Part shown: positions 30,519-51,947 of the stretch, piece by piece | How the letters are laid out: every line of letters starts with the position of its first letter | Numbering within the stretch: position 1 is the first letter of the stretch | Source of the DNA: Halobacteriovorax sp. | Lineage (GTDB): Bacteria > Bdellovibrionota > Bacteriovoracia > Bacteriovoracales > Bacteriovoracaceae | Direction of reading: 5' to 3' | DNA length: 64,000 bases | Assembly (NCBI GenBank): GCA_002720865.1 | Contig: PBIO01000031.1 | Location: forward strand, 248,001-312,000 | Position numbers and translations under genes: made by a program | The notes under the pieces: generated by a model | Seen by the model: the letters and a program-made list of their open reading frames with translations, nothing else | What the model was told of the DNA's origin: nothing | Database searches by the model: none

Positions 30519-31178
30519 ATGGAGCTTGAATTCGGAGCTCTTCACTCTATCGATTTACCAATAGAAAATGATCTTATTGAGAAATATTCTTTCTTGTTAA
30601 ACTCTCATATTGAAAAGGCCGTTGGCCCGCGAGTGAATGAGTTTTTAGGGGGAAGAATTTGTGCTCACCGTGCTGCTGCAAGTTTAGGAGTTGAGTTAAA
30701 AGAACTTTTGGCCGGGGAAAAAAGAGAGCCCCTTTGGCCTAGGAATCTTGTGGGAAGTATTACTCATACTAAAAAAATGGCCATGGCCCTAGTTGATTTA
30801 AAAACGTCTTCCAAGTCAGTAGGAATTGATGCGGAAGAAATTATTGGGGAAGAAAAAATTGAGACCATTGAAAAGATGGTGGCCACAAAAAAAGATTTGG
30901 CCTTCCTTAGATTATTTAGCGAAAAGCTTACGGCCTATACGGTTCTCTTTTGCGCTAAAGAGGCACTATATAAATTAGTCTATCCTCTTTGCGAAGAATT
31001 CTTTGGTTTTGAAGAAGCAGAACTTAAGGCCCTTGATCTTGAGAGCGGAGAATTTATCTTAAAACTTGATTCAAAAAAGCCGGCCCTTTCAAAATTTTTA
31101 GGAAATTATAGGGGGCAGTTTTACAGAAAAAATGGACATATTATCTCGGTCATTCGCTTAGCTAGTGATTCTCATTAG
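30519..31178 (+). CDS. 4'-phosphopantetheinyl transferase, EntD-like
   Basis: The 219-residue protein shows the family signatures: RICAHRAAASLG, GSITHTKKMAMALV, VGIDAEE with the Mg-binding Asp, and LFCAKEALYK. These enzymes attach the CoA phosphopantetheine arm to carrier domains. The NRPS-PKS genes that start 120 bases downstream contain four carrier domains, so this enzyme is the obvious activator of that assembly line. It overlaps none of its neighbours, but follows queE after 2 bases. Confidence 0.9.
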   Translation: MELEFGALHSIDLPIENDLIEKYSFLLNSHIEKAVGPRVNEFLGGRICAHRAAASLGVELKELLAGEKREPLWPRNLVGSITHTKKMAMALVDLKTSSKSVGIDAEEIIGEEKIETIEKMVATKKDLAFLRLFSEKLTAYTVLFCAKEALYKLVYPLCEEFFGFEEAELKALDLESGEFILKLDSKKPALSKFLGNYRGQFYRKNGHIISVIRLASDSH

Positions 31179-31299: not shown

Positions 31300-34200
31300 A
31301 TGAAGAACAAGCTGCATTTTCTTTTTGAAGAATATGTAAATTCCCATCCCGACGAAGTGGCCCTTATCTTTGGTGATAGGAAGCTGACTTATTCAGAGCT
31401 AAACCAAAAGGCCAATCAATTAGCCCGTAAATTAATTGAAGAGGGAGTCACTCCAGAGGACCGAGTTGGAATCTGTCTTGAACGTTCATTTGACTTGATA
31501 GCCTCAATTCTCGCTGTCCTAAAAACTGGTGCTTCCTATCTTCCCCTTGATCCTGAGTACCCAAAAGATCGTCTTGAATATATGATCGCCCACGCGGGAC
31601 CTAAAGTTCTTCTCCATCATAAAAAACTTTTAAACTCTCTTCCAAAGCTTGGTGAGGGAGCTCTTTGTTTTGACGAACTAGAGCTTGGTAGTTTTGAAAA
31701 TAAGAATTTAGAAATAAGTGAAGGAAGCCTTTGTTATATTATTTATACTAGCGGCTCCACAGGAACCCCTAAAGGGGTGGCCATGGGAGATAAGGCCCTC
31801 TTTAATTTAATCAAATGGCAAAATAAGCAGTCAGCAATTCTTAGCTCACCAGTGACTCTTCAATTTACTCCCGTTAGTTTTGACGTGCATTTTCAGGAAA
31901 TCTTTTCAACTCTTACAATGGGTGGAACTCTGGTTCTGGTTAGTGAAGAGGAAAGACTAGATAGCTTAAAGCTATTAGACATTATTGATTCAAAAAAAGT
32001 GGAAAGACTTTTTCTTCCGTTTGTGGCCTTAAATCATTTAAGCGAAATGGCCCAGCATTATAATAAAATCCCCAAGCATCTAAAAGAAGTGACCACGGCC
32101 GGAGAGCAGCTTAAGATCACCGAGGGGATTCGCCATCTCTTTTCAAACCTAGAAGGTGCCAGACTCCATAATCATTATGGGCCCAGCGAAACCCATGTGG
32201 TAACTAGTTATACCCTTGAGGGGGATTCAAAAGACTGGGAAGACCTTCCTTCCATTGGAAAACCTATTCTCAATGTGTCCTGTTATTTTTTAGATGAAAA
32301 TTTAAAAGAGACAAAAGATGAAGGAGAGCTTTACTTTGGTGGAGAGTGCCTAGCAGAAGGTTATCTTTTTCAAGAAGAGCTTACCCGTGAGCGCTTTATC
32401 GAAACAAAAGAATTTGGAAGGCTTTATAAAACCGGAGATCTTGGAAAATTAAATCAAAACCATGATATCGATTTTTTAGGTCGCCTAGATGGTCAGGTTA
32501 AGATTAGGGGTTACCGTATTGAGACCGGAGAAATTGAAGTCTGTATGCAAAAAATCTCTGGGGTTGAAGCAGCTGCGGTCAAAGTTTTTGAAGAGGGGAC
32601 AGAGAAATATCTTGTGGGCTATATCACAGGTAATGAAAAACCTCTTGATGTAAAAAATAAAATTAGTGAAAGCTTACCTGATTATATGATTCCTAGTCAT
32701 ATCGTAATGCTGACTTCCATGCCTCTTACCCCAAGTGGTAAGGTTGATAAAAAATCACTTCCAAAGCCTGGCTCTAAAAGACCGGAGCTAAATATTGAGT
32801 ACCTCGCTCCTAGCGGAGAAAAAGAAGAGCTTTTAGCTGGTCTTTGGGGTCGTCACTTAAAGATTGATAAGGTTGGGGTCCTGGATAGCTTTTTTGATCT
32901 TGGAGGCAACTCCCTTTTGGCCCTTCGAATTTTAGCGGAGCTTAAAGAAAAGCATCAGATTAATATTTCTGTGGTGAAGATGTTTCAGTATCCCACAATT
33001 AAGGCCCAGGTTGACTCCCTTGAAGGGGATGATGACTCTGAGTTAAGAGGCCGACTTGAGACTTTTAAAAATAAGCAAGGAAATCAAAAAAATAAAGATA
33101 TCGCCGTTATTGCCATGAACGGCCGCTTCCCGGGAGCCGATTCCGTGGAAAAACTTTGGGAAAATCTATTGGGGGGAGTGAACTCGATTTCACCAATTCC
33201 AAAAGATCAACTCGACCCAAGTATTCCTGATGAATTAAAAAATGATCCAAACTATGTAAGCGCTCGGGGAATTATGCCGGACTTTGATAAGTTTGATTCA
33301 AGCTTTTTTGGGATGACTCCAAGAGAAGCAGAGCTTATGGACCCGCAACAAAGGGTCTTTTTAGAGCTGGCCTTTGAAAGTTTAGAAAAAGCCGGCTACA
33401 CCTCTTCAAAGTATCAAGGCTCCATTGGGGTCTTTGCTGGCATGGCCAATAATACTTACTATCAAAAAGTTTTAAAGCAAAAAGATAAGGTGAACTCCGT
33501 AGGCGAGTTCAATGTGATGCTTGGAAATGAAAAAGATTATATCGCCACAAGGGTTTCCCATAAGCTTAACTTAAAGGGACCAAGCCTAAGTTTACATACC
33601 GGTTGCTCAACCTCTTTGGTTGCCATTATTCAAGCGGTGCAGTCCCTAAGAAATGGGGAATGCGATATGGCCTTGGCCGGGGGAATTTCTATTCAAGGCT
33701 CTCCCTATAGTGGCTATCTCTACCAAGAAGGAGGAATCTTTTCTAAAGATGGAAAGTGTAGACCTTTTGATAGTGAGGCCAGTGGAACTGTTTTTAATGA
33801 TGGGGGTGCTCTCGTTGTTTTAAAACCCTTGGAAGAAGCGATTGTGGCCGGTGATGAAATTCATGGAATTATTAAAGGGGTAGCTCTAAATAATGACGGT
33901 GCTGATAAGATGAGCTTTACGGCCCCATCAGTAAGTGGACAGGCCGAAGCTATTTCTCGTGCCCTAATCGATGGAGAAGTCGAGGCCAAAGATTTAAATT
34001 ATATTGAGGCCCATGGTACCGCCACCCCAGTGGGGGATCCGGTTGAGGTTGAAGGTCTTTGTAAGGCCTTTGGGCAAATGGATAAAAAAGAGTTTTGCGC
34101 TCTAGGATCCATAAAAAGTAATATTGGTCATCTTACCAGTGCCGCCGGAGTCACGGGCTTTATTAAGGCCTTACTTGTGGCCAAGACCGGTGAGGTTCCT

Positions 34201-37200
34201 GGTACCTTGCATTTTAGGAAAGCGAATACTGCTATAGATTTTTCGGCCACACCTTTTATTTTGAGCTCTGAAAAATCAGTGATTAATTCTTCTGAAAAAA
34301 TAAAGACAGGGGTTTCCTCCTTTGGAGTGGGGGGAACTAATGCCCATGTCGTCATTGAAGAATATAAAAATGAAGATAAAGACGAGTTAAGTCATGAGGT
34401 TCATCTTTACCGCTTCTCAGCTAAATCAAAAGAGGCTCTAGAGGAGCTTACGAAAAAACAATTGGCCTTAATTAATAGCCTTGAACCTAAAGATAAAACA
34501 AGGGCGGCCTATACTTTAGATGTGGGAAGGACGGACTACGCCTTTAGACAAGTCGTTGTGGGCGGTAATGAGTCCATCGAAAAATTAGTCCCTGCCAATA
34601 GCGCAAAAGATAAATTCAAGAATAAGAAAAAGCTATACTTTATGTTCCCGGGACAAGGCTCCCAGTACATCAATATGGGTAAAGGCCTTATGAAGCATAA
34701 GGTCTTTAAAGAAAGTTTTGATCGTTGCTGCGACCTTCTTGTAAAATATCAGGACCGAGATTTAAGAGAAATTATTTACCCAAGTATTGAGAATGAAGAA
34801 TCGGCCTATGAGGCCCTAAAAAATACTTATTATACTCAGCCGGCCATTTTTTGTTTTGAGTACTCTTTAGCAAATCTTCTGATAAGCTGGGGGATTACTC
34901 CAGACGGTCTAGTTGGCCATAGTGTTGGGGAATTTGTGGCCGCGACACTTTCGGGAATCTTTACCTTAGAAGAGGGACTGGCCTTAATCGCTAAACGAGG
35001 GGAGCTAATGAAGTCTCTTCCCGGTGGCTCCATGCTTTCGGTTCGCCTTGGACAAGAGGAAGTCATTCCTTTTCTTAATGAGGATATTCAATTGGCCGCG
35101 GTTAACGCCCCTGGCTTAGTGGTGGTTGCGGGACCAACGGATAAGATTAAGCTCTTTCAGGAGAGTTTAGAAAAAAGAGATATTGTCTGCCGCTTTTTAC
35201 ATACAAGTCATGCCTTTCATTCAGCCATGATGGATCCCATCGTTCCTAAGTACGAAGAGTTTGTAAAAAGTTTTACTTTAAAAGAAGCGCAGATTCCTAT
35301 TTTTTCAACGGTTGAAAAGGATGCAGATTTAAGTCAAAGCTCCTATTGGGCCAATCATTTACGGGCCCCCGTAAAGTTTTCACCATGTATTGAAAATCTT
35401 ATTAAAGAAGAGGATGCCATCTACCTAGAGATCGGTCCGCGAAATACTTTGGCTACTCTTAGTAAAAAGGTTTTCTTAAAGGAAGATAGAAAAGATTTAG
35501 TTTCTATAGCTTCGGTTAGTGATGATCCAGAGCTAGAAGAGAGAAGCTTATTAAAGGCCCTAGGTCAGCTTTGGATTCAGGGGATCTCCACAGATAGGGA
35601 GCTCTTTTATGGAAATAAAAAACCAAGACGAATCGCCCTTGAGACAATGCCTTTTAAAAGAAAACGAACTTGGATTGATGAAGTTACAACATATAAAGAA
35701 GAATTACATATTGAAAAGGAAGTAAAGATGACAGCCACAAATGATGGATTAAGATCTAAATTAACCGAAGTCTTTGAAGAGGCCAGCGGAATGGACATCT
35801 CTGAATTTGATTCCGATACCAGCTTTATGGAAATGGGAATGGATTCATTGTTCTTAACTCAGGTCGCCTTAAACTTGAAGAAAGTTTTTAAAGTTGAAAT
35901 TGGCTTTAGGCAATTAATGGAAGAGCTATCTACAGTAAATGAGCTTTGCTCTTTTCTAAAGGCAAATTCCTCTGTCAGCTTTGAAGAGGAAGTGACTCCT
36001 GAAGTGGCGGTTTCGGCTCCAGCACCTGCACCTGCACCTGCACCAGCACCTGCACCAGCACCTGCTCCCGTATCCGCACCAGCTCCAGTCGTAGCGGCTG
36101 CTCCGATTCAATTATCTTCAGGATCAAACCTAGAAACGATAGTGGCCAAACAATTAGACTTAATGTCTCAGCAAATGCAGCTTCTTTCTGGTCAGGCCGT
36201 GGTTTCAGCTCCTACGGCCCTCGCCCCACAGGCGCAGGCCCAGGCACAAGTGGCCCCTTCAGCGCCAGCGGCAAGTCCAGCACCAGCGCCCGCTGCTAAA
36301 GAGACTAAGGAAGTTAAAAAAGTAGATGTTAATAATGCCAAAAAGGCCTTTGGTGCCATAGCTAGGATTAATACTCAAAAGAATACTGAGCTTACAGCTG
36401 AGCAAGTTTCTTATATTGATCAGCTCACAAGCGAATATAATAAAAAAACCAAGGGCTCTAAAGAGTTTACTCAAAAGTATAGAAAGTCCCATGCGGACCC
36501 AAGAGTTGTGACTGGTTTTAGACCTGAAGTAAAAGAGCTTATTTATCCACTTGTTATTAATAAGTCCCATAGTCAAACTCTTTGGGATGTAGACGGAAAC
36601 AAGTATATTGATATGCTTTGTGGTTTTGGTTCCAACTTCTTTGGAAATGGAAATGAAAAAATTAAAAAGTATATCTTAGAGCAAATTGAAAACGGTTATG
36701 AGATTGGACCTCAGCATGAGCTAACAGGTGAAGTAAGCCGTCTTGTCTGCGAGCTAACCAACTCAGACCGAGCAGGTTTTTGTAATACCGGCTCAGAAGC
36801 AGTCCTTGGGGCCATGCGCGTGGCCCGAACCGTAACTGGAAGAGATACAATTATTGCCTTTGAAGGCTCTTATCATGGAATTAATGATGAGGTGATTGTA
36901 AGGGGAACAAAGTCTGGAAAATCTCTGCCGGCGGCGCCAGGAATTAATAAAGACGCTGTGAAAAATATGGTGATCTTAGAATATGGAACAGAAGAGTCCC
37001 TTGAAAAAATAAGAGAGCTCTCTAAAGATGCCGCTGCGGTTTTAGTTGAGCCAGTTCAAAGTAGAAGAAGTGACTTTCATCCAAAAGAGTTTCTACAAGA
37101 AGTGAGGAAGATTACCCTTGAAAATGATTGCGCTCTTATTTTTGATGAGGTTATTACTGGTTTTAGAATTCACCCCGGTGGCGCTCAGGCCTATTTTGAT

Positions 37201-37869
37201 GTGAAGGCCGATCTTGCCACTTACGGAAAAATTGTGGGCGGGGGAATTTCTATTGGAATTATCGCCGGTAAAGAAAAATATATGGATGCCCTTGACGGTG
37301 GACATTGGCAATTTGGTGATGCCTCTACCCCAACAGTGGGGGTAACCTATTTTGCGGGAACCTTTGTCCGCCACCCCATGGCCTTGGCCGCTGCAAAAGG
37401 GGCCCTTGAGATTATTAAAGAAGGGGGCGTTAAGCAGCTTCAAGACTTAACAGAAAAGGCTGATCACTTTGCCGATGAGATTAATCTTTATTGTCAGCAA
37501 GTTGGTCTACCTTTAAAGATGGATAATTTTGGCTCCTTAATGAAGCCAAAATGGAAAGAAGATGTTCAAAATGGGGATTTACTTTTTACACTGATGAGAT
37601 TTTATGGAGTTCATTGTTATGACGGTTTCCCATGGTTTGTTAACTTGGCCCATACAGATGAAGAACTCCAAACGGTTATCTCCATCTTTAAAAAATCAGT
37701 GAGGGCCCTACAAAAAGTGGGACTGCTACCTGGTATTGCCGGAGCAGAGCCTAAATTTGATATTCCGCCAATGGACGGGGCCATTCTAGGTAAAGACGCC
37801 CTTGGGAATCCTGCTTGGTTTATAAAAGATCCAGATAATCCAGATGAATATCTGGAGATTGAGGCCTAA
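31300..37869 (+). CDS. Hybrid NRPS-PKS, domains A-T-KS-AT-ACP-aminotransferase
   Basis: The 2189-residue protein starts without a condensation domain, so it loads the first unit. Adenylation domain (about 1-500): YIIYTSGSTGTPKG, HYGPSETHVV, VDKKSLP; the ten pocket residues read D V Q F T A H V V K, close to published proline codes. Carrier Ser about 534. Ketosynthase (598-1020): Cys769, His905, His944. Acyltransferase (1110-1415): GHSVGEF with Ser1208, and HAFH, typical of malonyl-CoA. ACP Ser1516 in GMDSLFLTQ. An Ala-Pro repeat linker (1567-1665) leads to a class III aminotransferase with PLP Lys1977 in TYGKIVGGG. No ketoreductase is present. It should convert a starter aminoacyl unit plus malonate into a beta-amino acyl chain. 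Confidence 0.93.
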   Translation: MKNKLHFLFEEYVNSHPDEVALIFGDRKLTYSELNQKANQLARKLIEEGVTPEDRVGICLERSFDLIASILAVLKTGASYLPLDPEYPKDRLEYMIAHAGPKVLLHHKKLLNSLPKLGEGALCFDELELGSFENKNLEISEGSLCYIIYTSGSTGTPKGVAMGDKALFNLIKWQNKQSAILSSPVTLQFTPVSFDVHFQEIFSTLTMGGTLVLVSEEERLDSLKLLDIIDSKKVERLFLPFVALNHLSEMAQHYNKIPKHLKEVTTAGEQLKITEGIRHLFSNLEGARLHNHYGPSETHVVTSYTLEGDSKDWEDLPSIGKPILNVSCYFLDENLKETKDEGELYFGGECLAEGYLFQEELTRERFIETKEFGRLYKTGDLGKLNQNHDIDFLGRLDGQVKIRGYRIETGEIEVCMQKISGVEAAAVKVFEEGTEKYLVGYITGNEKPLDVKNKISESLPDYMIPSHIVMLTSMPLTPSGKVDKKSLPKPGSKRPELNIEYLAPSGEKEELLAGLWGRHLKIDKVGVLDSFFDLGGNSLLALRILAELKEKHQINISVVKMFQYPTIKAQVDSLEGDDDSELRGRLETFKNKQGNQKNKDIAVIAMNGRFPGADSVEKLWENLLGGVNSISPIPKDQLDPSIPDELKNDPNYVSARGIMPDFDKFDSSFFGMTPREAELMDPQQRVFLELAFESLEKAGYTSSKYQGSIGVFAGMANNTYYQKVLKQKDKVNSVGEFNVMLGNEKDYIATRVSHKLNLKGPSLSLHTGCSTSLVAIIQAVQSLRNGECDMALAGGISIQGSPYSGYLYQEGGIFSKDGKCRPFDSEASGTVFNDGGALVVLKPLEEAIVAGDEIHGIIKGVALNNDGADKMSFTAPSVSGQAEAISRALIDGEVEAKDLNYIEAHGTATPVGDPVEVEGLCKAFGQMDKKEFCALGSIKSNIGHLTSAAGVTGFIKALLVAKTGEVPGTLHFRKANTAIDFSATPFILSSEKSVINSSEKIKTGVSSFGVGGTNAHVVIEEYKNEDKDELSHEVHLYRFSAKSKEALEELTKKQLALINSLEPKDKTRAAYTLDVGRTDYAFRQVVVGGNESIEKLVPANSAKDKFKNKKKLYFMFPGQGSQYINMGKGLMKHKVFKESFDRCCDLLVKYQDRDLREIIYPSIENEESAYEALKNTYYTQPAIFCFEYSLANLLISWGITPDGLVGHSVGEFVAATLSGIFTLEEGLALIAKRGELMKSLPGGSMLSVRLGQEEVIPFLNEDIQLAAVNAPGLVVVAGPTDKIKLFQESLEKRDIVCRFLHTSHAFHSAMMDPIVPKYEEFVKSFTLKEAQIPIFSTVEKDADLSQSSYWANHLRAPVKFSPCIENLIKEEDAIYLEIGPRNTLATLSKKVFLKEDRKDLVSIASVSDDPELEERSLLKALGQLWIQGISTDRELFYGNKKPRRIALETMPFKRKRTWIDEVTTYKEELHIEKEVKMTATNDGLRSKLTEVFEEASGMDISEFDSDTSFMEMGMDSLFLTQVALNLKKVFKVEIGFRQLMEELSTVNELCSFLKANSSVSFEEEVTPEVAVSAPAPAPAPAPAPAPAPAPVSAPAPVVAAAPIQLSSGSNLETIVAKQLDLMSQQMQLLSGQAVVSAPTALAPQAQAQAQVAPSAPAASPAPAPAAKETKEVKKVDVNNAKKAFGAIARINTQKNTELTAEQVSYIDQLTSEYNKKTKGSKEFTQKYRKSHADPRVVTGFRPEVKELIYPLVINKSHSQTLWDVDGNKYIDMLCGFGSNFFGNGNEKIKKYILEQIENGYEIGPQHELTGEVSRLVCELTNSDRAGFCNTGSEAVLGAMRVARTVTGRDTIIAFEGSYHGINDEVIVRGTKSGKSLPAAPGINKDAVKNMVILEYGTEESLEKIRELSKDAAAVLVEPVQSRRSDFHPKEFLQEVRKITLENDCALIFDEVITGFRIHPGGAQAYFDVKADLATYGKIVGGGISIGIIAGKEKYMDALDGGHWQFGDASTPTVGVTYFAGTFVRHPMALAAAKGALEIIKEGGVKQLQDLTEKADHFADEINLYCQQVGLPLKMDNFGSLMKPKWKEDVQNGDLLFTLMRFYGVHCYDGFPWFVNLAHTDEELQTVISIFKKSVRALQKVGLLPGIAGAEPKFDIPPMDGAILGKDALGNPAWFIKDPDNPDEYLEIEA

Positions 37870-37871
37870 GA

Positions 37872-40800
37872 GTGGGAAAGAAGGCCAAGAAAATAACTCA
37901 TAACCCTTTTGAAGGGGGAGAGATCATTCTTAGTGTGCCCACAACGGAATCTCAGCGAGAGATGTGGGCCACAGTAGAAATGCTTCCTGAAGCAACTCTT
38001 TGTTATAACGAATCCCTTAGGGTGAGTTTAAAAGGGGAGCTTTGTCTTAGAAGCTTTCAACGTGCCTTTCAAGAAATGATTAGACGCCACGATGCCATGA
38101 GGTCTAGTTTTACCTCCGATGGTAAGTGGCTTTTGGTGAGCGATAAGTTTAACTACCTCTATGAATTTATGGATTGGTCTGAAACTTCAGATCGTTCTGA
38201 GCTGCTTAAAAAAGAAATTGAAAAGGCTACTAAACATAAATTCAACTTAGTTAAAGGTCCACCTTTTAAGGCCAGTCTAATTAAACTGGATAAAGACGAG
38301 CATCTCTTTTTTATTACCGCTCATCATATTATTTGTGATGGCTGGTCCATGGCGATTATGGTCTCTGAACTTTCTAAACTTTATTCTGACTTTTTAGAAG
38401 ATAAAAGAAATCAGCTTTCATGGCCTATTCAATTTAGTCAGTACGCCATTAGAGAAAACAAAGGTGAGATCACTAAAGATTGTGATATTCAGTACTGGAA
38501 AAATGAATTCAAGACGATTCCTAAACCCTTAGATCTTCCCCAGGATTTTAAAAGACCTGATTTTAGAACTTATGATTCTAAGAGAATTGACTTAGAAGTG
38601 CCGCCGGAGCTTGTTCAAAAAATTAAAAAACTCGGTGGAAAGCTTGGCATGAGCTATTACACCACTTTAATGACGGGATTTGAAATACTTTTACATAGAT
38701 TAACCAAAAGGGAAGACCTAGTGGTCGGTGTCTCGGCCGCGGCCCAATCTATCCTTGGAGAGTACGATCTTTGTGGTCATTTGGTTAACCTTCTTCCAAT
38801 AAGAGCGAAGATTGATCCTAATGGAAGTTTTGAATCCCTTGGTAAGGAACTTAAGACCAAAATGCTTGATGCTTTTGATCATCAGACTTATACCTTTGGA
38901 AGTTTATTAAAAGAGTTAAAATTAAAAAGAGATCCCTCTCGAATTCCGCTGGTAAATATTATCTTTAATGTCGATCAGCAGTATTTTGGACAGGGCCTTG
39001 AGTTTAAAAAGATAAAGGCCTCTTATACTTCTAATCCTAGGCATTTTGAAAATTTTGAGATTTTTATTAATGCTACGGCCTGTGGTGATGAGCTGGTGTT
39101 AGAATGTCAGTACAATACCAATCTTTTTAAACATGAGACGATTCTAAATTGGCTTGAACAATATATTTCAATTATGGAACAGGCCTGCATCTCTTCTTCA
39201 GTTAAGCATAAGGATCTTATGCTAAATAATCTAATCCTACCTGCATTTGAAGAAAGCTCAGATAGCGAGGCTAAACTAGTGGAGGAGGAAACACCTCCTT
39301 CTAAAGAAGAGCCTCGTGTTTTAAAAATCTGGGAAGAAGTTCTTCAGATGCAAGGTATTCCAAGAGATATGGACTTCTTCGCCCTAGGAGGGCATTCACT
39401 ACTGGCCAATGAAGTTTTAACCAAGGTCATAGCTGAATTTGGAGTAAAGCTTAGCTTAAAAGATTTCTTTATGGCCCCTACCATAATGCAATTTGCTAGG
39501 CTGCTTGATAGTGGTGAAACTGAAAAGGCCGAAACGAAAACTATTCAGGGAGGACAGGCACCGCTTTTTGGAGAAGTTGATGTCAGTGTGAATCAGCTGA
39601 GAACCTGGTATCTCGAGCAATTTAATCCTGAAACCACCATGCACTTTCTTCCGGCCAGCTTTCGCGTAAAAGCAAAGATAGATGTTTTGGCCCTAGAGAA
39701 AAGTTTAAACTATTTAATAGAGCGACATAGCGCTCTTCGAACATGCTTTAAGGCCGTGGATGGAATTCCAAAACAAGTTATTCAAGAGAATTTAAATTTT
39801 AAGCTAGAACTTGAAAACTGCAAGGAAGAGGATATTGTCAAAGTCTTAAATAAAGACGCCGAACTTCCCATGAGTCTTGAAAAAGCACCGCTTTTTAGAT
39901 CTAAACTCTATAAACTTGGAAAAGAGGATTTTGTTTTTTACTTTAATGTGCATCATATAATTTGGGATGGCTGGTGCTTTGATATCTTTTTTGACGAGTT
40001 AAGCCGCTCCTATGCTGCCTTTGCAAAGGGAGAGTCACCTTCACTAGAAAAGCTCCCGGATATTACATATGGGGACTTTGCTCTTTATAATAAAGAGGTC
40101 AATGAGTCCGCTTTCTTTAAAAATGAAATTAAATTTTGGAAAGAAAATCTTTCACAAATTCCAGTTCTAGAATTACCGACGGATTTTCCAAGACCTCCTC
40201 AAATGTCAAATGAGGGGGAGGCCCTTCCCTTTCAAATTGATATGAAGCTAGCTCAAAAACTAAAAGATCTAGCGGGTGAAAATAGCTCTTCACTTTTTAA
40301 TGTGTTTTTAACCGCCTTTAAAATGGCCGTAAGCCTTCATTCTGGTAGTACAGACCTCGTAGTGGGAACGCCCGTTAGAGGAAGAAGCACTAAAGAGCTA
40401 GAGAAAATTATTGGCTACTTTGTAAATACGGTTTCACTTAGATCAAGATTAGATTTTCAAAAAAGTTTTGCTGCTAATTTGGAAGTCGTCACCCATGGAT
40501 CACTAGATGCATTTTCGAATCAAAGCTTGGCCTTTGAGACCATTTTAGAGCATGTAAACTGGGAGAGAGATCCGAGCCGCACGGCCATATATCAAATATT
40601 TTTCTCATACCAGGATGTAAGTAATAGAGAAGGGCATTTAGGCGGGCATCCCTATTCACAGATCAATATTGATAAAGCATCCACCCATACAGATCTTGAT
40701 ATGTGGATTAAGACTGGAAAAAACAAAGTCGAAGGTGCCTTTGAGTATCGAATCGATCTCTTTAAAAAAGAAACCATCTCCATTATCATGGAGACTTTTA

Positions 40801-43478
40801 AGCATATACTTACCTTAGCGGCAGATTCAGCAAAGACTTCTTTAAGTGAACTTGAACTGATTGCTCCGACGCAAAAAGATCTTCTTATAAATAAATTAAA
40901 TGATACTTGGATAGATTTTGGGAGTGAGGAATCCTTCCATGAACTCTTTGAGCAAAGAGTTCAAAAAGCCCCTTCAAGCCCCGCGGTTCATGATGAGAAG
41001 GGAAGTTTAACTTATGAAGAACTTGATAATAAGGCAAATGCATGGGCCAATGATCTTATCTCTAAAGGTGTAGTCCCAGGAGATTTAGTAGGACTGTCTG
41101 TTCATCGTCATAAGGAAATGCTTGTGGCCCTACTCGCAATCTTAAAGGCCGGGGCAGGTTATGTTCCCCTTGATCCGGGATTTCCCCAAGACCGTCTTGA
41201 TTATATGATTGAAAGCTCAAAGCTAAAGCTTATGATCGTAGAGGATAGCCTTCTTTCTCGCTTTAAAAATGATTCAGCTAAAAAACTTCTCCTAAGTGAG
41301 ATGTCTGAAGAAAATAATCAAAAACCTCTTAGCACTTATAATGGAAGTAGTACGGCCTATGTGATTTATACCTCTGGTTCCACAGGTAAACCTAAAGGGG
41401 TTCAATTGCCCCATAGGGCGGTAATTAATTTTTTAAGGTCCATGGCCGTGGCACCGGGTATGAAAGATAAAGATCGCCTTCTTGCGGTAACCACCTTAAG
41501 TTTTGATATTGCTGTGCTAGAGCTTTATCTTCCCTTAATCACCGGAGGGAGCGTCTATATTGCTACTAAACAAGATGCTATGGACGGAGAGAGCTTAAAG
41601 AAGATAATTGAAAAAGAAAAAATCACCATGATGCAGGCAACTCCCTCCACCTGGCGACTGCTTCTAGCTTCAGGCTGGAAAGGATCAGAAGACTTTAAAC
41701 TACTTTGCGGTGGGGAGCCTTTCCCAAAAGACTTGAATCAAAAGCTTATTCCCTTAGTTGAAAGTGTTTGGAATATGTACGGTCCAACGGAAACGACCGT
41801 TTGGTCTACTATTGAAAAGTTAACGGACCCGATGGCCCCTATTTTAATAGGTAAGCCCATCGCCAATACGAGCTGTTATATTTTAGATGAAGAGCAAAAG
41901 CTTCTTCCTTTTGGAAGAACCGGTGAGCTTTATATTGGAGGCCATGGTCTAGCCGATGGTTATAAGGGCCGAGAAGATTTAACCCTTGAGCGATTTGTGC
42001 CTAATCCCTTTAGATCTGGGGAGAAAATGTATAATACGGGAGATCTGGCCCGTTATCATAGTGATGGCCGGCTTGAATGCCTTGGTAGAAATGATGGACA
42101 AGTTAAAGTCAGAGGCTACCGGATAGAGCTCGGGGAAATTGAATCTGTTCTTAGTCAATTCCCAGGAATTGAAAGCTCAGTGGTTATCACAAGGGAAGAT
42201 CAGCCCGGAGATGTAAGGCTTGTTGGATATTATATAAATTCCGGTGGGCCATTAGATCTTTTTAAGCTAAGGGCCTTTCTAGGGGAGAAAATCCCAAGCT
42301 ATATGATTCCTTCCCATTTTATGGAGCTAAAAGAATTTCCTAAAACTCTTAATGAAAAAATTGATAAGAAAAATCTTCCTGCACCAGTGGCCGCAGCGGT
42401 TAAAATGGAAGAGGTTATTACTGAAGAAAAACCAAAGGCCAATAAAAAGCACCAGTCCTTAGATTCGACGGAATCTAAGCTAAAGGCCATTTGGATTGAG
42501 CTTTTAGGGCATGATGAGATTGAGCGTGAGAGTAACTTTTTTGATGTGGGTGGGCATTCTCTTTTATCAGTTCAGCTTTTTTCAAAAATAGAAAAAGAAT
42601 TTAATCTAAGTCTAGGGCTTGCCACTTTATTTGAGGCCTCAAGCTTAGGGGGACTCTCAGATTTAATAGACTCTAAACTTGGACCTAGTGAACCCAATAG
42701 AGATGTGAGTACAGAAGTCTCTAGCTTACTTCATTCAGTTGTTGAGATTAAAAAAGGACAAAAGGAGCCCATCTTTTGTTTTCATGGAGTAGGGGGGAAT
42801 GTCTTAAACTATATGGCCCTTGTTCCAGGGCTTGACGAGGGACGAGGTCTTTATGGAATGCAAAGCTACGGGGTAGATGGAAACTCAGAGACTTTAAACA
42901 CAATAGAAGAAATGGCCGAAGTCTATTATAAAGAAATGAGATCTGTTCAGCCGAGGGGCCCGTACTTTTTAGCTGGCGGCTCTATGGGTGGATACTTGGC
43001 CTTAGAAGTAGCAAGACTCTTACAAATGGCCGGAGAAGAAGTTGCAGAGCTAATTATGTTTGATACTTTTGGGCCAGATATAGATTTAAAATCTTATGGT
43101 AATCAGACTCATGGGTTCATTGAAAATCAAAAGATTATGATTCCCTACCGCTTTAAAAAGTATTCTTATAAACTTCGCGTGGCCTTTTTAAAGCTCTTTG
43201 GGCTACCCATTCCCCATGAGATAAGACATTTCTTTATTGAGGCCAAGAACTATAGCGCCCTTTATAAATATGAAGTTAAACCTTTTAAAGGGAATATCAC
43301 TCTCTTTAGAAGCCCAATTGCTAGTACTGGTTTTTATTCCGATCCAAATTTAGGTTGGGGCAGCTCTCTTGATGGTGAGCTAACGCTTATCGAAGTAGAC
43401 GGTGATCATGAAAAAATTGTGGAGGCCCTTGGTCTTCCAAAGGCCTTAAAAGACTATTTATCTAATTCTAAAACGTAA
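37872..43478 (+). CDS. NRPS, domains C-T-C-A-T-thioesterase
   Basis: A GTG 2 bases after the previous stop begins 1868 residues. Condensation 1 has HHIICDG (His151, His152, Asp156). A carrier follows directly (Ser509 in GGHSLL), so this module lacks its own adenylation domain. Condensation 2 has HHIIWDG (His694, His695). Adenylation (1030-1510) shows YVIYTSGSTGKPKG, and pocket residues D I L Q L G M V W K, close to the glycine code. Carrier 2 Ser1563. The C-terminal thioesterase has GGSMGG with Ser1704 and His1846 in VDGDHEKI, and releases the product. The second carrier must be charged in trans or by the downstream A domain. The 3' end overlaps a convergent peptidase gene by 25 bases. Confidence 0.93.
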   Translation: MGKKAKKITHNPFEGGEIILSVPTTESQREMWATVEMLPEATLCYNESLRVSLKGELCLRSFQRAFQEMIRRHDAMRSSFTSDGKWLLVSDKFNYLYEFMDWSETSDRSELLKKEIEKATKHKFNLVKGPPFKASLIKLDKDEHLFFITAHHIICDGWSMAIMVSELSKLYSDFLEDKRNQLSWPIQFSQYAIRENKGEITKDCDIQYWKNEFKTIPKPLDLPQDFKRPDFRTYDSKRIDLEVPPELVQKIKKLGGKLGMSYYTTLMTGFEILLHRLTKREDLVVGVSAAAQSILGEYDLCGHLVNLLPIRAKIDPNGSFESLGKELKTKMLDAFDHQTYTFGSLLKELKLKRDPSRIPLVNIIFNVDQQYFGQGLEFKKIKASYTSNPRHFENFEIFINATACGDELVLECQYNTNLFKHETILNWLEQYISIMEQACISSSVKHKDLMLNNLILPAFEESSDSEAKLVEEETPPSKEEPRVLKIWEEVLQMQGIPRDMDFFALGGHSLLANEVLTKVIAEFGVKLSLKDFFMAPTIMQFARLLDSGETEKAETKTIQGGQAPLFGEVDVSVNQLRTWYLEQFNPETTMHFLPASFRVKAKIDVLALEKSLNYLIERHSALRTCFKAVDGIPKQVIQENLNFKLELENCKEEDIVKVLNKDAELPMSLEKAPLFRSKLYKLGKEDFVFYFNVHHIIWDGWCFDIFFDELSRSYAAFAKGESPSLEKLPDITYGDFALYNKEVNESAFFKNEIKFWKENLSQIPVLELPTDFPRPPQMSNEGEALPFQIDMKLAQKLKDLAGENSSSLFNVFLTAFKMAVSLHSGSTDLVVGTPVRGRSTKELEKIIGYFVNTVSLRSRLDFQKSFAANLEVVTHGSLDAFSNQSLAFETILEHVNWERDPSRTAIYQIFFSYQDVSNREGHLGGHPYSQINIDKASTHTDLDMWIKTGKNKVEGAFEYRIDLFKKETISIIMETFKHILTLAADSAKTSLSELELIAPTQKDLLINKLNDTWIDFGSEESFHELFEQRVQKAPSSPAVHDEKGSLTYEELDNKANAWANDLISKGVVPGDLVGLSVHRHKEMLVALLAILKAGAGYVPLDPGFPQDRLDYMIESSKLKLMIVEDSLLSRFKNDSAKKLLLSEMSEENNQKPLSTYNGSSTAYVIYTSGSTGKPKGVQLPHRAVINFLRSMAVAPGMKDKDRLLAVTTLSFDIAVLELYLPLITGGSVYIATKQDAMDGESLKKIIEKEKITMMQATPSTWRLLLASGWKGSEDFKLLCGGEPFPKDLNQKLIPLVESVWNMYGPTETTVWSTIEKLTDPMAPILIGKPIANTSCYILDEEQKLLPFGRTGELYIGGHGLADGYKGREDLTLERFVPNPFRSGEKMYNTGDLARYHSDGRLECLGRNDGQVKVRGYRIELGEIESVLSQFPGIESSVVITREDQPGDVRLVGYYINSGGPLDLFKLRAFLGEKIPSYMIPSHFMELKEFPKTLNEKIDKKNLPAPVAAAVKMEEVITEEKPKANKKHQSLDSTESKLKAIWIELLGHDEIERESNFFDVGGHSLLSVQLFSKIEKEFNLSLGLATLFEASSLGGLSDLIDSKLGPSEPNRDVSTEVSSLLHSVVEIKKGQKEPIFCFHGVGGNVLNYMALVPGLDEGRGLYGMQSYGVDGNSETLNTIEEMAEVYYKEMRSVQPRGPYFLAGGSMGGYLALEVARLLQMAGEEVAELIMFDTFGPDIDLKSYGNQTHGFIENQKIMIPYRFKKYSYKLRVAFLKLFGLPIPHEIRHFFIEAKNYSALYKYEVKPFKGNITLFRSPIASTGFYSDPNLGWGSSLDGELTLIEVDGDHEKIVEALGLPKALKDYLSNSKT

Positions 43479-44608
43479 GAAAGTCCCAATTTTGCAAAGA
43501 TAACAGAATGGGCAGCAGAGCCGTTCATTACATCTAAGGTATCATCTGCCGTATGAATTCTAGGATTCTCTTCTGCCACTCTCGATTCATAAATAAAAGA
43601 AGAGCGAAAGTTTCTATAGCTAAAAGAATAATGATCGCTACAAGCGTAATTACACTTATCATATCCCCATGGAACTCCCAGGTATTTATCAACTAGAGTT
43701 CCTAAAAATTGATTTTGCTCTTTATCAGTTTCATCTGAAATAATACTTAAATTGATATCCTCGCTTCCTTTAAAGTTGGTGCCATCAATATTAAGCATGC
43801 CTCTAATCTTTTTTACCTTTTCATCATACCTCTTAGAAATATCCATACTTCCACGCAGGCCCACTTCCTCAGCGGCAAAGGCCATAAATTGAAGGTTATG
43901 ATGAGGCTTATAATTTGATTCAATAAGTACACGGATAATTTCAGTGATAACCGCTATACCAGAAGCATTGTCATCTAGACCCGGTGAGTGAGAATGGGGA
44001 CCTTCATCATCCGAGTTAATACTATCACCGTGGCCGCCAACAATAATATTTTCATCCGTTGAACCTTTAATAGTTAAGACAACAGACTTTTGTTTCCATT
44101 CTTTATGATCAATTAGTTCAACTTTGACATCAGATCTATTTTCAGTAAGTTTCGACCAGTTCTTAGCTAGGTCTTCCATGGCCTTTATTCCCTCAGGGGA
44201 AGAGTAGTACCTGGTCTTATAGCTTGAAAACCATGCCATTAAAGAGAGAAGTCTAGATTCCTGTACATTTTCTAGTAGAGGTTTTACGAGTGTTTCTTTA
44301 GTTACTCTATAGTCAACGGTGTATCTATTATCGTCCCACCCTTTTAAGAGCTTTTTCTTTTTATTCTTCTCTACACTTTTTGTAACAAAGCCACCGCATC
44401 TTCCGGTATGGGCATGTAGGGCGGCAGATAGAGAGTTAAGCTCAGCTTCCTTAAGTCTAAGTTCAACCTTTTTTCCAAAGTTTTGAACTTTATATTTAAG
44501 GCCTCTCGAAATAAGCTCTTTATAGGAATTCAGAGGAAGTTCAACAGAAACCTCTTTTGAATAAAGCGATGTGGAAAGGAGAAGTAAAAGGATCGAAAAA
44601 GCTTTCAT
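43454..44608 (-). CDS. Secreted M28-family zinc aminopeptidase
   Basis: A signal peptide (FSILLLLLSTSLYS) and an N-terminal propeptide-like region of about 150 residues precede an M28 domain. Di-zinc ligands are visible in order: VGGHGDSIN, PGLDDNASG, AAEEVGLRGS (catalytic Glu), NIDGTN, and a late NPRIHTADDTLD. It resembles the Vibrio-type leucyl aminopeptidase and should remove N-terminal residues from peptides outside the cytoplasm. Convergent with the NRPS gene; it could act on the peptide product, but secretion and general nutrition is the simpler reading. Confidence 0.85.
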   Translation of the reverse strand: MKAFSILLLLLSTSLYSKEVSVELPLNSYKELISRGLKYKVQNFGKKVELRLKEAELNSLSAALHAHTGRCGGFVTKSVEKNKKKKLLKGWDDNRYTVDYRVTKETLVKPLLENVQESRLLSLMAWFSSYKTRYYSSPEGIKAMEDLAKNWSKLTENRSDVKVELIDHKEWKQKSVVLTIKGSTDENIIVGGHGDSINSDDEGPHSHSPGLDDNASGIAVITEIIRVLIESNYKPHHNLQFMAFAAEEVGLRGSMDISKRYDEKVKKIRGMLNIDGTNFKGSEDINLSIISDETDKEQNQFLGTLVDKYLGVPWGYDKCNYACSDHYSFSYRNFRSSFIYESRVAEENPRIHTADDTLDVMNGSAAHSVIFAKLGLSYVLELDK

Positions 44609-44729
44609 GATTTCTTATAGCCTATAAAAAAAATAAAATCTTCTAATTGTAATTTTTCACAGATTTAATAATATATTCTTCACAAATATGGCATAGGGGG
44701 GTAGGGTATAGTCTTTTCAGGAGAAGGTG

Positions 44730-45512
44730 ATGTTAAATCTAGTAAAGAATAATCCTCTTATTTTGATTTTAAGAAAAATTAAGTATGAGAGAAAGTTTCG
44801 TAATAATAAGGACTTAAACCTCTTTAAAGGGGTTTTCTCCTCTTATCAAAGTGCTTTTGACTCAATTCCAAGCGAGCTTCTTAACTCTTATGACAATGAA
44901 AGTTCAGCAAAAATGTATAAACACCTATGTTCGGAAGTTTTTCCTTCTGATTACGCAAATATGTTTTGGTTAAGTCAGCTAATAAGGGACGAATCAAAAG
45001 TTTTTGATTTAGGAGGTCATATTGGGGTTAAATATTATAGCTATCAACAATATTTCAATTTCCCAGAAAGCATAAACTGGACAGTGTTTGATACTTCTTC
45101 GGCAATTGAAGAAGGAAAGAAGTTTGCTAATCAAAAAGGTGAACATAGGCTTAAATTTTCTGAGAAAATTGATGAATTTGACGACCACGATATTCTTTTT
45201 GTCTCTGGTGCTCTTCAGTATATAGATATTAATTTATCAGACATAATTTCAAAAAAGGCTTCAAAACCCAAATTTGTCCTAATAACTCTTCCTCTTACTC
45301 AGCACGAAAGTTTTTATACTATTAATAATTTAGGAACAGCATGTTGCGTCTATATTGTTCGAAATGAAAACGAATTTATTAAGAGTTTTGAAGATATTGG
45401 CTACGAAAAAAAGGACGACTGGAATATTCCCGCAAAGTATTGTGAGATTCCTTTTTTCGAAAAATATTCTCTAGAAAACTACAGAGGTCTTTTGTTTGAA
45501 TTTACTGATTGA
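44730..45512 (+). CDS. TIGR04325-family putative methyltransferase
   Basis: The ATG at 44730 (a GTG at 44727 is also possible) follows AGGAGAAGG. The protein matches the TIGR04325 SAM-methyltransferase family: FKGVFSSYQSAFDSIP near the start, VFDLGGHIGVKYYSY as the SAM-binding loop, then FVSGALQYID and FVLITLPLTQ. Members occur in surface polysaccharide and secondary-metabolite clusters. The neighbouring NRPS-PKS could supply its substrate, but a divergently placed peptidase separates them. The upstream region has a G-rich run (GGGGGGTAGGGTAT) vaguely like the copper boxes. Confidence 0.75.
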   Translation: MLNLVKNNPLILILRKIKYERKFRNNKDLNLFKGVFSSYQSAFDSIPSELLNSYDNESSAKMYKHLCSEVFPSDYANMFWLSQLIRDESKVFDLGGHIGVKYYSYQQYFNFPESINWTVFDTSSAIEEGKKFANQKGEHRLKFSEKIDEFDDHDILFVSGALQYIDINLSDIISKKASKPKFVLITLPLTQHESFYTINNLGTACCVYIVRNENEFIKSFEDIGYEKKDDWNIPAKYCEIPFFEKYSLENYRGLLFEFTD

Positions 45513-46545
45513 GTAAATATGAGATTAAAACGATTTGTGGAATCGTCAAAGCAGGTAAAATTAAGGTACAAAGCCATGATTTTGTTGTGTCTTTTAATGA
45601 CATGATTTCAGTATAATCGGTAGAGACGCCGGTCATTAGAAATGCAAAGGCATTTCCAGGTGCCTTGGCCCTCGTAACCAAGTCAGCGGCGAGGGGTGTT
45701 GAGCCCTCTGAACAAACCTCTAAAACCGTAGCGACAAATAAAGTGATACCCATTCCTCCCATTGTCGGTCCAACATATTCCTGAAGAATTTCAGGGGAGG
45801 CTACTAGGCGAACAGCTGAGGTTAGAACAGCGCCAAAAAAGATCCATCTTAGAACCATTTGCCCGTCCCTAAATCCATTTACTGCCAGTTCTTTATAAAA
45901 TAATACAGTGAAGAACTTACCTTTAAATGAGGCTTTGAGGTTTGGCCAAACCTGATAATCACTAGGAAGTTCAGTTTGGTTTATATTATTAGGAATGAGC
46001 TTTTTTAAGAGTAGTACTCTAACAATGAGGCCCGTGATAATGGCAATAATTCCAGAAAGAACTATAAAGCTTATGGTTAGTTTTGCTCCTACAAGCGTAA
46101 ATAAAATAAAAGTTAATGAAATTGAGTTCCAGGGACTAGCAATCAAAAAGGCCATAACCTGAGCGAGGCTAGCGCCACGCTCGTAAAGTTTCATTCCAAC
46201 CATAAGAATACCATGGCTACAGAGGTCTAGTAGTAGCCCAGCCGCTGTTGCCTTAAAGATTCCTTTAATAGACGTTGGGGAACCGACAGCACTAATGACA
46301 ACCTCTCTTGGAATAAAACTCAAAAGCCCCACAAACACGAGACCTAGGAGTATTCCAGGGGCCATTGTGTTCATTAGTTCTACAATCGAATGACTAAAAT
46401 GAAGTTGTATGCCCGGAAGAAAAAAATGTTGAAAATAGGATAGGCCTATAATTAAACTTGATCCAATAAGTAGCCAATCACGCTTTTTAGTACTCGTTCC
46501 ATGGCAGCTAGTTTCAACTTTTACTTCTTGTGGGCAACAACTCAT
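45502..46545 (-). CDS. Heavy-metal permease, SO_0444/ArsP-2-like
   Basis: The 347-residue protein starts with a Cys/His-rich tail (MSCCPQEVKVETSCHG) suited to bind soft metals. About eight to nine membrane helices follow, with GILLGLVFVGLLSFIPREVV, DLCSHGILMVGM and ASPWNSISLTFIL. This fits the DUF318-derived permease group whose SO_0444 members export Cu or Zn. It is the last gene of a three-gene operon with a small exported protein and a haem-motif lipoprotein. The operon promoter region holds a CsoR-type box. It converges on, and overlaps by 11 bases, the methyltransferase gene. Confidence 0.8.
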   Translation of the reverse strand: MSCCPQEVKVETSCHGTSTKKRDWLLIGSSLIIGLSYFQHFFLPGIQLHFSHSIVELMNTMAPGILLGLVFVGLLSFIPREVVISAVGSPTSIKGIFKATAAGLLLDLCSHGILMVGMKLYERGASLAQVMAFLIASPWNSISLTFILFTLVGAKLTISFIVLSGIIAIITGLIVRVLLLKKLIPNNINQTELPSDYQVWPNLKASFKGKFFTVLFYKELAVNGFRDGQMVLRWIFFGAVLTSAVRLVASPEILQEYVGPTMGGMGITLFVATVLEVCSEGSTPLAADLVTRAKAPGNAFAFLMTGVSTDYTEIMSLKDTTKSWLCTLILPALTIPQIVLISYLLNQ

Positions 46546-46558
46546 TTCTTATCCAATC

Positions 46559-46828
46559 TTAGTTGTGGTGACATTCAAAAGGCTCATTTGCACTATGTCT
46601 ATGGCAACCAAACTTCATTTTTGATCCAGAGTTTAGATAAACAGTTACCGATACTCCGTGATCATTTGGCGAAGCTTTTACTCCTTTAAAGTCAGCAATA
46701 GTGTCTTCATCATGACTTTCTTCAAAGAGCCTGATCGTTTCAGTAACAGCTTCTGCTGTATCCGAAGCTCCGGAAGCAAATAAGTTAAAAGAAACTAGTA
46801 ATGTTAGGGTAAGCAAAATCGATTTCAT
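46559..46828 (-). CDS. Small exported protein, possible metal binder
   Basis: The 89-residue product has a Sec signal (LLTLTLLVSFNLFASG) and a mature domain of about 70 residues. It ends in FGCHRHSANEPFECHHN, with two Cys and four His in the last 17 residues, a plausible soft-metal site. No family was recognised. It sits between the haem-motif lipoprotein (15 bases) and the metal permease (13 bases), supporting a role in delivering or capturing copper in the periplasm. Confidence 0.6.
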   Translation of the reverse strand: MKSILLTLTLLVSFNLFASGASDTAEAVTETIRLFEESHDEDTIADFKGVKASPNDHGVSVTVYLNSGSKMKFGCHRHSANEPFECHHN

Positions 46829-46843
46829 ATTCTCTCCTTTTAG

Positions 46844-47359
46844 TTAGAATTCATCATTATCAAAATCGTCTTCTATATCATCGTCAAAATCATCATCATC
46901 ATCATCATCATCTTCTTCGCAGTTTTTTGGTAGTTCCGTAATTTCCTCGTTAGGGGCGCAGGCCCTAATCCACTTCGCGATAAAGTCTATTTCTTTTTGA
47001 TGAAGTCTTTCTTTAATCGGCATATTGCCATTATCCACCTCTTCCCAAAGCCTACTTTTTTTAGGATGGCCTTTTATCAATAAAGGAATAAACTTCTTTT
47101 CCATAGTCGTTTCGTAGGTATCAAAATTGATAGGATCAAACTCTGGCTCCGCTCTTCCTAATAATTCTGAATGGCAGGAAAGGCACTTAGGTTTGAGTAT
47201 AAATTCATGTAAGGACTTAAAACTAAGTGGTGCCTTCCCTTGAATTAAGGCATTGCCTTCAAAAGGAAGCGTTGAATCTTTAAATTCAAGGGGACCTTTT
47301 TGCGGCTTGCACGCTATTAATAATAGGAGTGCTATGGGGAAAAGCAGTACCGTTCTCAT
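46844..47359 (-). CDS. Lipoprotein with a cytochrome c motif and poly-acidic tail
   Basis: A lipobox (LLLLIACK) gives a lipid-anchored protein. KCLSCHSEL near residue 60 is a haem c attachment motif, and NMPIKE downstream may give the Met ligand, as in small membrane-anchored cytochromes. The last 25 residues are almost all Asp and Glu, a likely metal-binding tail. It is the first gene of the permease operon. The copper box at 47397-47412 lies about 40 bases upstream of its start. Confidence 0.65.
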   Translation of the reverse strand: MRTVLLFPIALLLLIACKPQKGPLEFKDSTLPFEGNALIQGKAPLSFKSLHEFILKPKCLSCHSELLGRAEPEFDPINFDTYETTMEKKFIPLLIKGHPKKSRLWEEVDNGNMPIKERLHQKEIDFIAKWIRACAPNEEITELPKNCEEDDDDDDDDFDDDIEDDFDNDEF

Positions 47360-47396
47360 TGTTTATAGGTACCCTTAAATTTTTGAAAGATCAAGT

Positions 47397-47412
47397 ACCC
47401 CCATGGGGTATG
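47397..47412. promoter_or_regulatory. CsoR-type operator, permease operon
   Basis: TACCCCATGGGGTATG is a near-perfect dyad just upstream of the minus-strand lipoprotein-permease operon. It matches the inverted-repeat form bound by copper-sensing CsoR repressors. Confidence 0.65.
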
Positions 47413-47483
47413 TAAAAAAGTAATTAAAATTGTAAATATTTCCAGACATAACGAAGTTCTAGCCGTTTTCTTGGGTTCTTTGT

Positions 47484-47500
47484 ATATACCCCCTATACGT
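47484..47500. promoter_or_regulatory. CsoR-type operator, oxidase-csoR operon
   Basis: TATACCCCCTATACGTA keeps a strong left half but a degenerate right half. It lies 15-31 bases before the start of the multicopper oxidase gene, overlapping the expected promoter. Confidence 0.5.
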
Positions 47501-47514
47501 ATTTTGGAGAATAT

Positions 47515-49698: not shown

Positions 49699-49707
49699 GA
49701 TAGTAAA

Positions 49708-49992
49708 ATGAGTAAGAAAGGCGCAGATCATAAAAAACAATTGAGCCGTGTAAACCGTATTGAAGGTCAGGTACGGGGAATTGGTAAAATGATCGAAGAG
49801 GAGAAGTACTGTATCGATATTCTTACCCAGATCAAGGCCGTTCGCTCTGCCATGAAATCTCTTGAGTTAGAAATGCTTGAGTCTCACCTGAATTGCTGCT
49901 TAAAAGGTGCTGTTCAATCTGAGTCTAAAGAACAGATGAATGAGAAGATAGAGGAGATTCTAACGCTGATTAAAAGGGTTAGTAAGTCCTAG
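49708..49992 (+). CDS. csoR: CsoR-family copper-sensing repressor
   Basis: The 94-residue protein matches the DUF156/CsoR fold: LSRVNRIEGQVRGIGKMIEE, then Cys35, His60 and Cys64. This Cys-His-Cys set is the Cu(I) site of true CsoR proteins, as opposed to RcnR or FrmR relatives. Apo-CsoR binds GC-rich dyads and releases them on binding Cu(I). It shares an operon with the multicopper oxidase and likely represses its own operon and the other box-bearing units nearby. Confidence 0.88.
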   Translation: MSKKGADHKKQLSRVNRIEGQVRGIGKMIEEEKYCIDILTQIKAVRSAMKSLELEMLESHLNCCLKGAVQSESKEQMNEKIEEILTLIKRVSKS

Positions 49993-49993
49993 C

Positions 49994-50018
49994 GGCAAGT
50001 TTTGCCAGAAATTTTTTC
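49994..50018 (+). terminator. Terminator candidate after csoR
   Basis: GGCAA and TTGCC pair around a 3-base loop just after the csoR stop, followed within 4 bases by a run of six T. Confidence 0.6.
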
Positions 50019-50032
50019 GTAGAGTTTTTAAA

Positions 50033-50049
50033 TCCCCCTCAGGGGTATT
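50033..50049. promoter_or_regulatory. CsoR-type operator, subtilisin-like protease
   Basis: TCCCCCTCAGGGGTATT shares the box layout. It lies about 40 bases before the start of the protease gene, beyond the csoR terminator. Confidence 0.6.
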
Positions 50050-50089
50050 CCCTCCGATAGGTTGGTAACGACTTATTCAGGAGGAATTT

Positions 50090-51388: not shown

Positions 51389-51408
51389 TTTATGCTCGTC
51401 TGTTGACA

Positions 51409-51425
51409 TACCCCCATGGGGTATG
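51409..51425. promoter_or_regulatory. CsoR-type operator, haem-binding-domain gene
   Basis: TACCCCCATGGGGTATG is the clearest box in the window. It lies about 13 bases before the ATG at 51438. Confidence 0.65.
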
Positions 51426-51437
51426 TTATGGAGAGTT

Positions 51438-51947
51438 ATGAAAATTATTCTTTTTTTAGTATTTACTCACTTTTATTCAACAGCTTGGGGCCATGGTGGG
51501 ATTGATCACTCAAAAGGGGATTCTCATGCTCCTGTGAAGATGCCACCAATAGGGAATCGAAACTCACAAATTCATCAAAGAATAAATGAAAGCTATAAAT
51601 TGAATGTCAGACCTATCTTTGAAAGATCTTGTTTTGACTGTCATAGCAGTACTACCCAGTATCCTTGGTACTACAAAGTTCCAGGTGTTAAGCAGCTGAT
51701 CGATTCAGATATAAAAGAGGCTAGAAGCCACCTTGACTTTAGTCATGATTTTCCGTTTATAAGCCATGATTCTCCAGAAAATGACTTAAAGTCTATTCAG
51801 AAGTCAGTGGAGGAAGAAAATATGCCTCCATTTAAATACTTGATATTACACAGTAATTCTGATCTTTCAGACATTGAGGTTAAGACAATAAGTGATTGGA
51901 CCCAAACATCCTTAAATATGCTGAAAAATGAACCGAAAAGTAGATAA
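51438..51947 (+). CDS. Exported haem-binding-domain protein
   Basis: The ATG at 51438 follows GGAG and opens a signal peptide (IILFLVFTHFYSTAWG); an ATG at 51423 falls inside the operator. The mature protein starts with His-rich residues (GHGGIDHSKGDSHAP). A domain like the Haem_bd family follows: RPIFERSCFDCHSSTTQYPW with a CxxCH haem c motif, then EENMPPFKYLILH. It is probably a periplasmic c-type haem protein, here under a copper box. A role in electron transfer from copper oxidation is plausible but unproven. Confidence 0.75.
   Translation: MKIILFLVFTHFYSTAWGHGGIDHSKGDSHAPVKMPPIGNRNSQIHQRINESYKLNVRPIFERSCFDCHSSTTQYPWYYKVPGVKQLIDSDIKEARSHLDFSHDFPFISHDSPENDLKSIQKSVEEENMPPFKYLILHSNSDLSDIEVKTISDWTQTSLNMLKNEPKSR

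Follow-up and report, generated by a model that had tools for sequence, protein, structure and literature searches.

Assembly lines are usually taken to be producers of free, secreted metabolites. The mycosubtilin/iturin synthetase MycA is a lipopeptide producer that has an acyl ligase at its start, and in the microcystin/nodularin lines of the McyE type a PKS module with an aminotransferase (AMT) domain is followed by NRPS modules. The genes investigated here, which lie in a 64,000-nucleotide stretch of DNA (the window), are a dedicated and conserved NRPS-PKS assembly line whose component parts are of known kinds and whose AMT groups with that of MycA. We found no published description of this line in the literature, and the features that we did not find there are its short order with a predicted proline start, the apparent sharing of one glycine A domain and its tie to a specific polysaccharide. 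Our literature search likewise turned up nothing relevant on NRPS or PKS genes in exopolysaccharide, capsule or exosortase loci. Nonribosomal peptide-polyketide and polyketide-saccharide clusters have been reported in bulk for the Bdellovibrionota, in the one related paper that the search brought up, whose main text gives no details of them (PMC8067016).

Domains of the line and their known counterparts

Two ORFs on the + strand, uninterrupted throughout and separated by a gap of 2 bp, encode the line. ORF A (31300..37869, 2189 aa) reads A-T-KS-AT-ACP-AMT, with an A domain (A1, 31315..32799), a carrier (T1, 32812..33024), a ketosynthase (KS, 33094..34569), an acyltransferase with the HAFH motif of malonyl-type domains (AT, 34639..35535), an ACP (35758..35958) that is followed by an Ala/Pro-rich linker, and a class III aminotransferase (AMT, 36544..37710); the corresponding Pfam matches are AMP-binding (5.7e-70), PP-binding, ketoacyl-synt N/C (1.7e-69), Acyl_transf_1 (1.3e-47), a further PP-binding and Aminotran_3 (7.6e-47). 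ORF B (37872..43478, 1868 aa) reads C-T-C-A-T-TE, with a condensation domain (C1, 37914..39266), the carrier of a module that has no A domain (T2, 39309..39521), a second condensation domain (C2, 39576..40901), an A domain (A2, 40947..42371), a carrier (T3, 42477..42668) and a type I thioesterase for release (TE, 42768..43475), matched by Pfam as Condensation twice (4.5e-168), AMP-binding (4.7e-83), PP-binding twice and Thioesterase (1.7e-23). Pfam and motif alignment together bear out the domain order given in the preliminary description, as well as its free A-T start, the N-terminal domain being an amino-acid A domain. Broken domains, a possibility which that description had raised, were not found on alignment: every active-site motif is intact in the window's line, and nearly all are also conserved among its relatives. 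These are the KS Cys/His/His, the AT GHSxGE and HAFH, the carrier Ser and the AMT Lys in TYGK in ORF A, and HHxxxDG in C1 and C2, the carrier Ser and the TE GGSxGG (conserved as GGSMGG) in ORF B. The line therefore has what defines a type I modular NRPS-PKS hybrid, namely A/T, KS-AT-ACP and C-A-T modules whose catalytic residues are intact, together with an available phosphopantetheinyl transferase (PPTase), and no ketoreductase could be read among its domains. The PPTase, of the Sfp type (30519..31178, + strand; Pfam 4PPT_N 1.5e-21, ACPS 4e-11), ends 121 bp upstream of ORF A and has a homologue immediately upstream of the line in most relatives' loci. It is predicted to activate the carrier domains, and as a dedicated, directly adjacent helper gene it corrects the earlier view, which had noted none.

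The closest solved relative of the AMT, and the closest of those tested, is that of MycA (6kfm, E 4e-112), which agrees with the suspected kinship to the iturin/mycosubtilin pathways and suggests the same conversion of a beta-keto to a beta-amino group on the ACP ahead of a C domain. The likeness ends there; the N-terminal acyl ligase of the iturin/mycosubtilin type is absent although its AMT is present, and the line opens with a proline-type amino-acid A domain and uses no fatty acid. Lines of the McyE type are larger, multi-protein systems with reducing and methylating domains, a distinction that we draw by description only. The specificity region of A1 resembles the proline A domains of the gramicidin S and tyrocidine synthetases (GrsB, TycB), which sit in internal elongation modules, whereas A1 starts the chain. 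The preliminary description knew of no match to this order. No published counterpart emerged from the literature and the rest of the line is indeed unlike the iturin and microcystin types, but the order is shared by relatives.

Spread of the line and its tie to a polysaccharide locus

The nearest named records of the window are a Halobacteriovorax MAG, at 77% identity over the best segment, and, at 51%, a Bacteriovoracaceae MAG, which fits the suspected predatory-type host as far as sequence can indicate it. A strong match to ORF A occurs in 24/129 genomes of the family (f1), one of which, G073, holds a different AMT-PKS; with G073 left out and the window's genome counted, the line is present in 23 Bacteriovoracaceae-like genomes from 10 genera. 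Phylum-wide, the same first protein occurs outside f1 in G353 and G327 (f26), G365 (f29) and G174 (f3), and the loci of f26 and f29 hold homologous variants of the line. The order C-T-C-A-T-TE is kept in G174 and in those f1 loci that have a complete second protein. Two f1 loci depart from the usual form of the line. The second protein is present as two ORFs (565 and 1225 aa) at L037:1092-6565 in G079, through decay or assembly error, and the first protein at L051:6389-11353 in G019 has lost A1 and starts at the carrier, with Wza just upstream. A 7.5 kb contig of G357 (L088) encodes a T-KS-AT-ACP protein, a PPTase and a formyltransferase-like protein together with a polysaccharide deacetylase and a weak match to GH123.

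The preliminary description, which missed this wide spread, had regarded the genes as an isolated compact cluster and proposed a synteny search of related genomes. Such a search overturns the isolation and reveals a conserved line, in most relatives a cassette inside a locus for exopolysaccharide (EPS) biosynthesis and export. In 16 f1 genomes the line adjoins Wza/Wzx/Wzy EPS genes, and its neighbour there is usually F3, a GH123-like protein. Nine of these 16 show the complete series Wza, PPTase, ORF A, ORF B, F3, with GT4 glycosyltransferases, a Wzx flippase, another glycosyltransferase, Wzy and Wzc nearby. Like other Wzx/Wzy-dependent EPS loci, those of the relatives hold a priming transferase, glycosyltransferases, Wzx, Wzy, Wzc, Wza and a deacetylase; unlike them, they have an NRPS-PKS cassette and a GH123-like protein built in. 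F3 (roughly 850-1100 aa) has a profile match to the GH123 structures 5l7v/5l7r (E 8e-6) and an invariant S-D-E, and its match to GH123_cat is borderline, at E <= 0.1 in 6/12 members, and over the cut-off in several genomes; F3 is probably a GH123-related glycosidase. Outside f1, EPS genes are adjacent to the line in G353, where two flanking proteins match GH123 models, and near it in G365, and in G327 a GH123 gene lies on the same contig as the line.

Linkage is not universal. The line and the EPS locus are apart in G011, in G174 and throughout the window's genus: in the window's genome the line occupies 279.3-291.5 kb of contig G000:C31 and the homologous EPS locus about 364-381 kb of the same contig, with Wza at 374.5 kb, about 83 kb beyond the line, an arrangement repeated in G038, another member of the genus; and in G174 some 150-165 kb separate the line from a full EPS locus that includes GH123. 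The Wza-F3 site of G011 holds a PPTase while the line lies elsewhere, and in G013 Wza is followed directly by F3 with no line between. The line nevertheless co-occurs with F3 across the 129 family genomes (22 genomes have both, 1 has the line alone, 2 have F3 alone and 104 have neither), and the numbers for Wzy are identical (22/1/2/104), with a Fisher p of 1.7e-21 that overstates independence because the genomes share ancestry. In genus g4 the two are found together in 6 genomes, the polysaccharide system by itself in 2, and neither one in 6. The system occurs without the line in G013, G014 and apparently also G322, and the line is therefore not essential to it. As a negative control, a second AMT-PKS family of the phylum (T-KS-AT-ACP-AMT-C; G073, G204, G193, G237 and G362) has no EPS neighbours. 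The loci of this second family (L053, L097, L098, L099 and L101) have conserved neighbours of their own, F63, F64, F66, F70 and an AMP-ligase-like protein. The window's genome also encodes a second NRPS, with the order C-A-T-TE (L015:9142-12960; G000:C31 about 229.1-233.0 kb), which does not lie within an EPS locus; it has a glycine-type code identical to that of A2, DILQLGMVWK, and a fatty acid desaturase and an AMP-binding enzyme nearby.

We read the line as dedicated to this one Wzx/Wzy polysaccharide, with its GH123-like protein and often a deacetylase, and its product as most likely a cationic decoration, where we infer the last step; we give this reading a probability of about 0.42. A serious rival, and a real possibility that still falls short of an even chance, is that the product is a free secreted small metabolite, such as a signal, a metal ligand or a weapon against competitors, that is merely co-produced with the coat or shares the export machinery of the polysaccharide. 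In its favour are the terminal TE, typical of lines whose products are set free, a homologue of an ABC exporter (F42) that adjoins the line in G353 and lies close to it in L042, and the break in EPS linkage within the window's genus. Against it, the co-occurrence with the specific GH123/Wzy system holds even where the two are unlinked, and most loci have no conserved receptor, regulator or exporter next to the line. A siderophore was set aside as a candidate product, no receptor or uptake genes being conserved near the line.

Predicted product and the proposed use of one A domain for two carriers

The pocket code of A1, obtained by alignment to GrsA, is DVQFTAHVVK, of the proline type, and the best PDB matches of its specificity region, far above the rest, are gramicidin S synthase 2 (8p5o) and tyrocidine synthase 2 (9bfd_B), domains that activate proline; codes like DVQFTAHVVK denote this amino acid. 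Proline-type codes are found in most relatives (DVQYIAHVVK in G353, DVQFIAHVVK in L048 and L049). Two points tell against the reading: position 299 is Thr, not Ile, in many members, and the codes of five relatives differ, with DPMSNAQVVK or DPLFNGQIVK in L046, L050 and L052, and DFWNIGAIIK and DFWNIGGIFK in G327 and G365. The A2 code, DILQLGMVWK, is of the glycine type and is the same or near-identical in nearly all members. The predicted substrates are proline for A1 and glycine for A2. On these codes, a plausible course begins with conversion of the carriers to their holo form by the PPTase and the loading of proline onto T1 by A1, after which KS and AT would extend it by a single malonyl unit. 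With no ketoreductase in the line, the resulting beta-ketone would be left for the AMT to convert to an amine, giving 3-amino-3-(pyrrolidin-2-yl)propanoyl-ACP. C1 would then join this ACP-bound unit to glycine on T2, C2 would pass the chain on to glycine on T3, A2 would charge both of these carriers, and the TE would release a small dibasic pseudopeptide. The predicted product is 3-amino-3-(pyrrolidin-2-yl)propanoyl-Gly-Gly, with two basic nitrogens; the computed [M+H]+ of the linear acid (C11H20N4O4) is 273.156 and that of the form less one water 255.145. No known product with a proline-derived vicinal diamine was found in the literature.

The charging of T2 deserves closer attention. The first NRPS module is genuinely C-T, an arrangement common to all 18/18 second proteins aligned (the window's included), and in all of them the carrier Ser is kept, within an intact GGHS in the window. 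In G353 the second protein is instead C-A-T-C-A-T, with DILQLGMVWK in both A domains, whereas in G327 and G365 it is C-A-T-C-T, keeping the first glycine A domain, and in the window's clade C-T-C-A-T, keeping the second. In a tree of C domains, C1 from all three bacterial families falls into a single clade (support 100/100) and C2 likewise into another (100/100), and the positions are therefore homologous across the families. The alternate retention of the glycine A domain, with both kept in G353 and one in the others, suggests that one A domain probably loads both carriers, so that the simplest reading is a single glycine A domain serving T2 and T3; the A-domain tree is too weak to tell the loss of an A domain from its move. 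Modules without an A domain are loaded in trans in other systems, and T2 might likewise be charged by a free-standing A domain with another amino acid, in which case the product would not contain Gly-Gly. We consider this unlikely: other AMP-binding enzymes are present in the window's genome, but in G353 an A domain with the glycine code occupies exactly the position of the T2 module, and the genes conserved alongside the line include no free-standing A domain. The glycine A domains, kept at different positions, provide a natural experiment in serving two carriers with one A domain.

The release step also varies. G353 and G365 have no TE but separate TIGR03100- and TIGR03101-like hydrolases, and in G327 (L082:6750-12335) the NRPS carries a TIGR03101-like domain as a C-terminal fusion, all of these matches being below the curated cutoffs. 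Homologues of the XrtA/exosortase A-associated hydrolases thus take the place of the TE in these three genomes, although none lies beside the line in the window's clade. The G327 fusion suggests a release (thioesterase) role for these orphan exosortase-associated hydrolases.

Possible use of the product and genes flanking the line

If the line serves the polysaccharide, its product could be a covalent decoration or building block of the surface polymer, giving these predatory bacteria a peptide-modified, polycationic coat. We put this forward tentatively and with some doubt; a cationic decoration is plausible because the GH123 and deacetylase neighbours hint at a polysaccharide of amino sugars, and no enzyme joining peptide to sugar was identified. 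It is very improbable that the glycosyltransferases and the line together make one small glycosylated peptide and modify no polymer, since several glycosyltransferases and a methyltransferase do adjoin the line but the locus holds a polymer set (priming transferase, Wzx, Wzy, Wzc, Wza), and G013 has the locus but not the line. What gives a decorative role its significance is that, in several families of a predatory phylum, co-occurrence ties the line to one specific polysaccharide system. Were the link functional, it would represent a route for building non-sugar, non-ribosomal groups into a bacterial surface coat, and may bear on the attachment of predator to prey.

Two neighbours of the line are possible, unproven members of the gene set. 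An M28 aminopeptidase (F9; 43454..44608, - strand, convergent with the line; Peptidase_M28 5.3e-32) has homologues near the EPS loci of G004, G011 and G016 and adjoining the line in G365. A methyltransferase of the TIGR04325 family (F105; 44727..45512, + strand; 2.2e-52, above cutoff) has homologues adjoining the line in G327 and G365, and is not beside the line in G038. No Rfam families were found in the window. Further downstream, positions 45502-61218 form a probable copper/heavy-metal handling region, with an SO_0444-like permease, a CopA-like multicopper oxidase (47515-49698), a 94-aa regulator-like ORF, a CusCBA-like efflux set (52384-58080) and a multicopper-oxidase-like protein (59650-61218).
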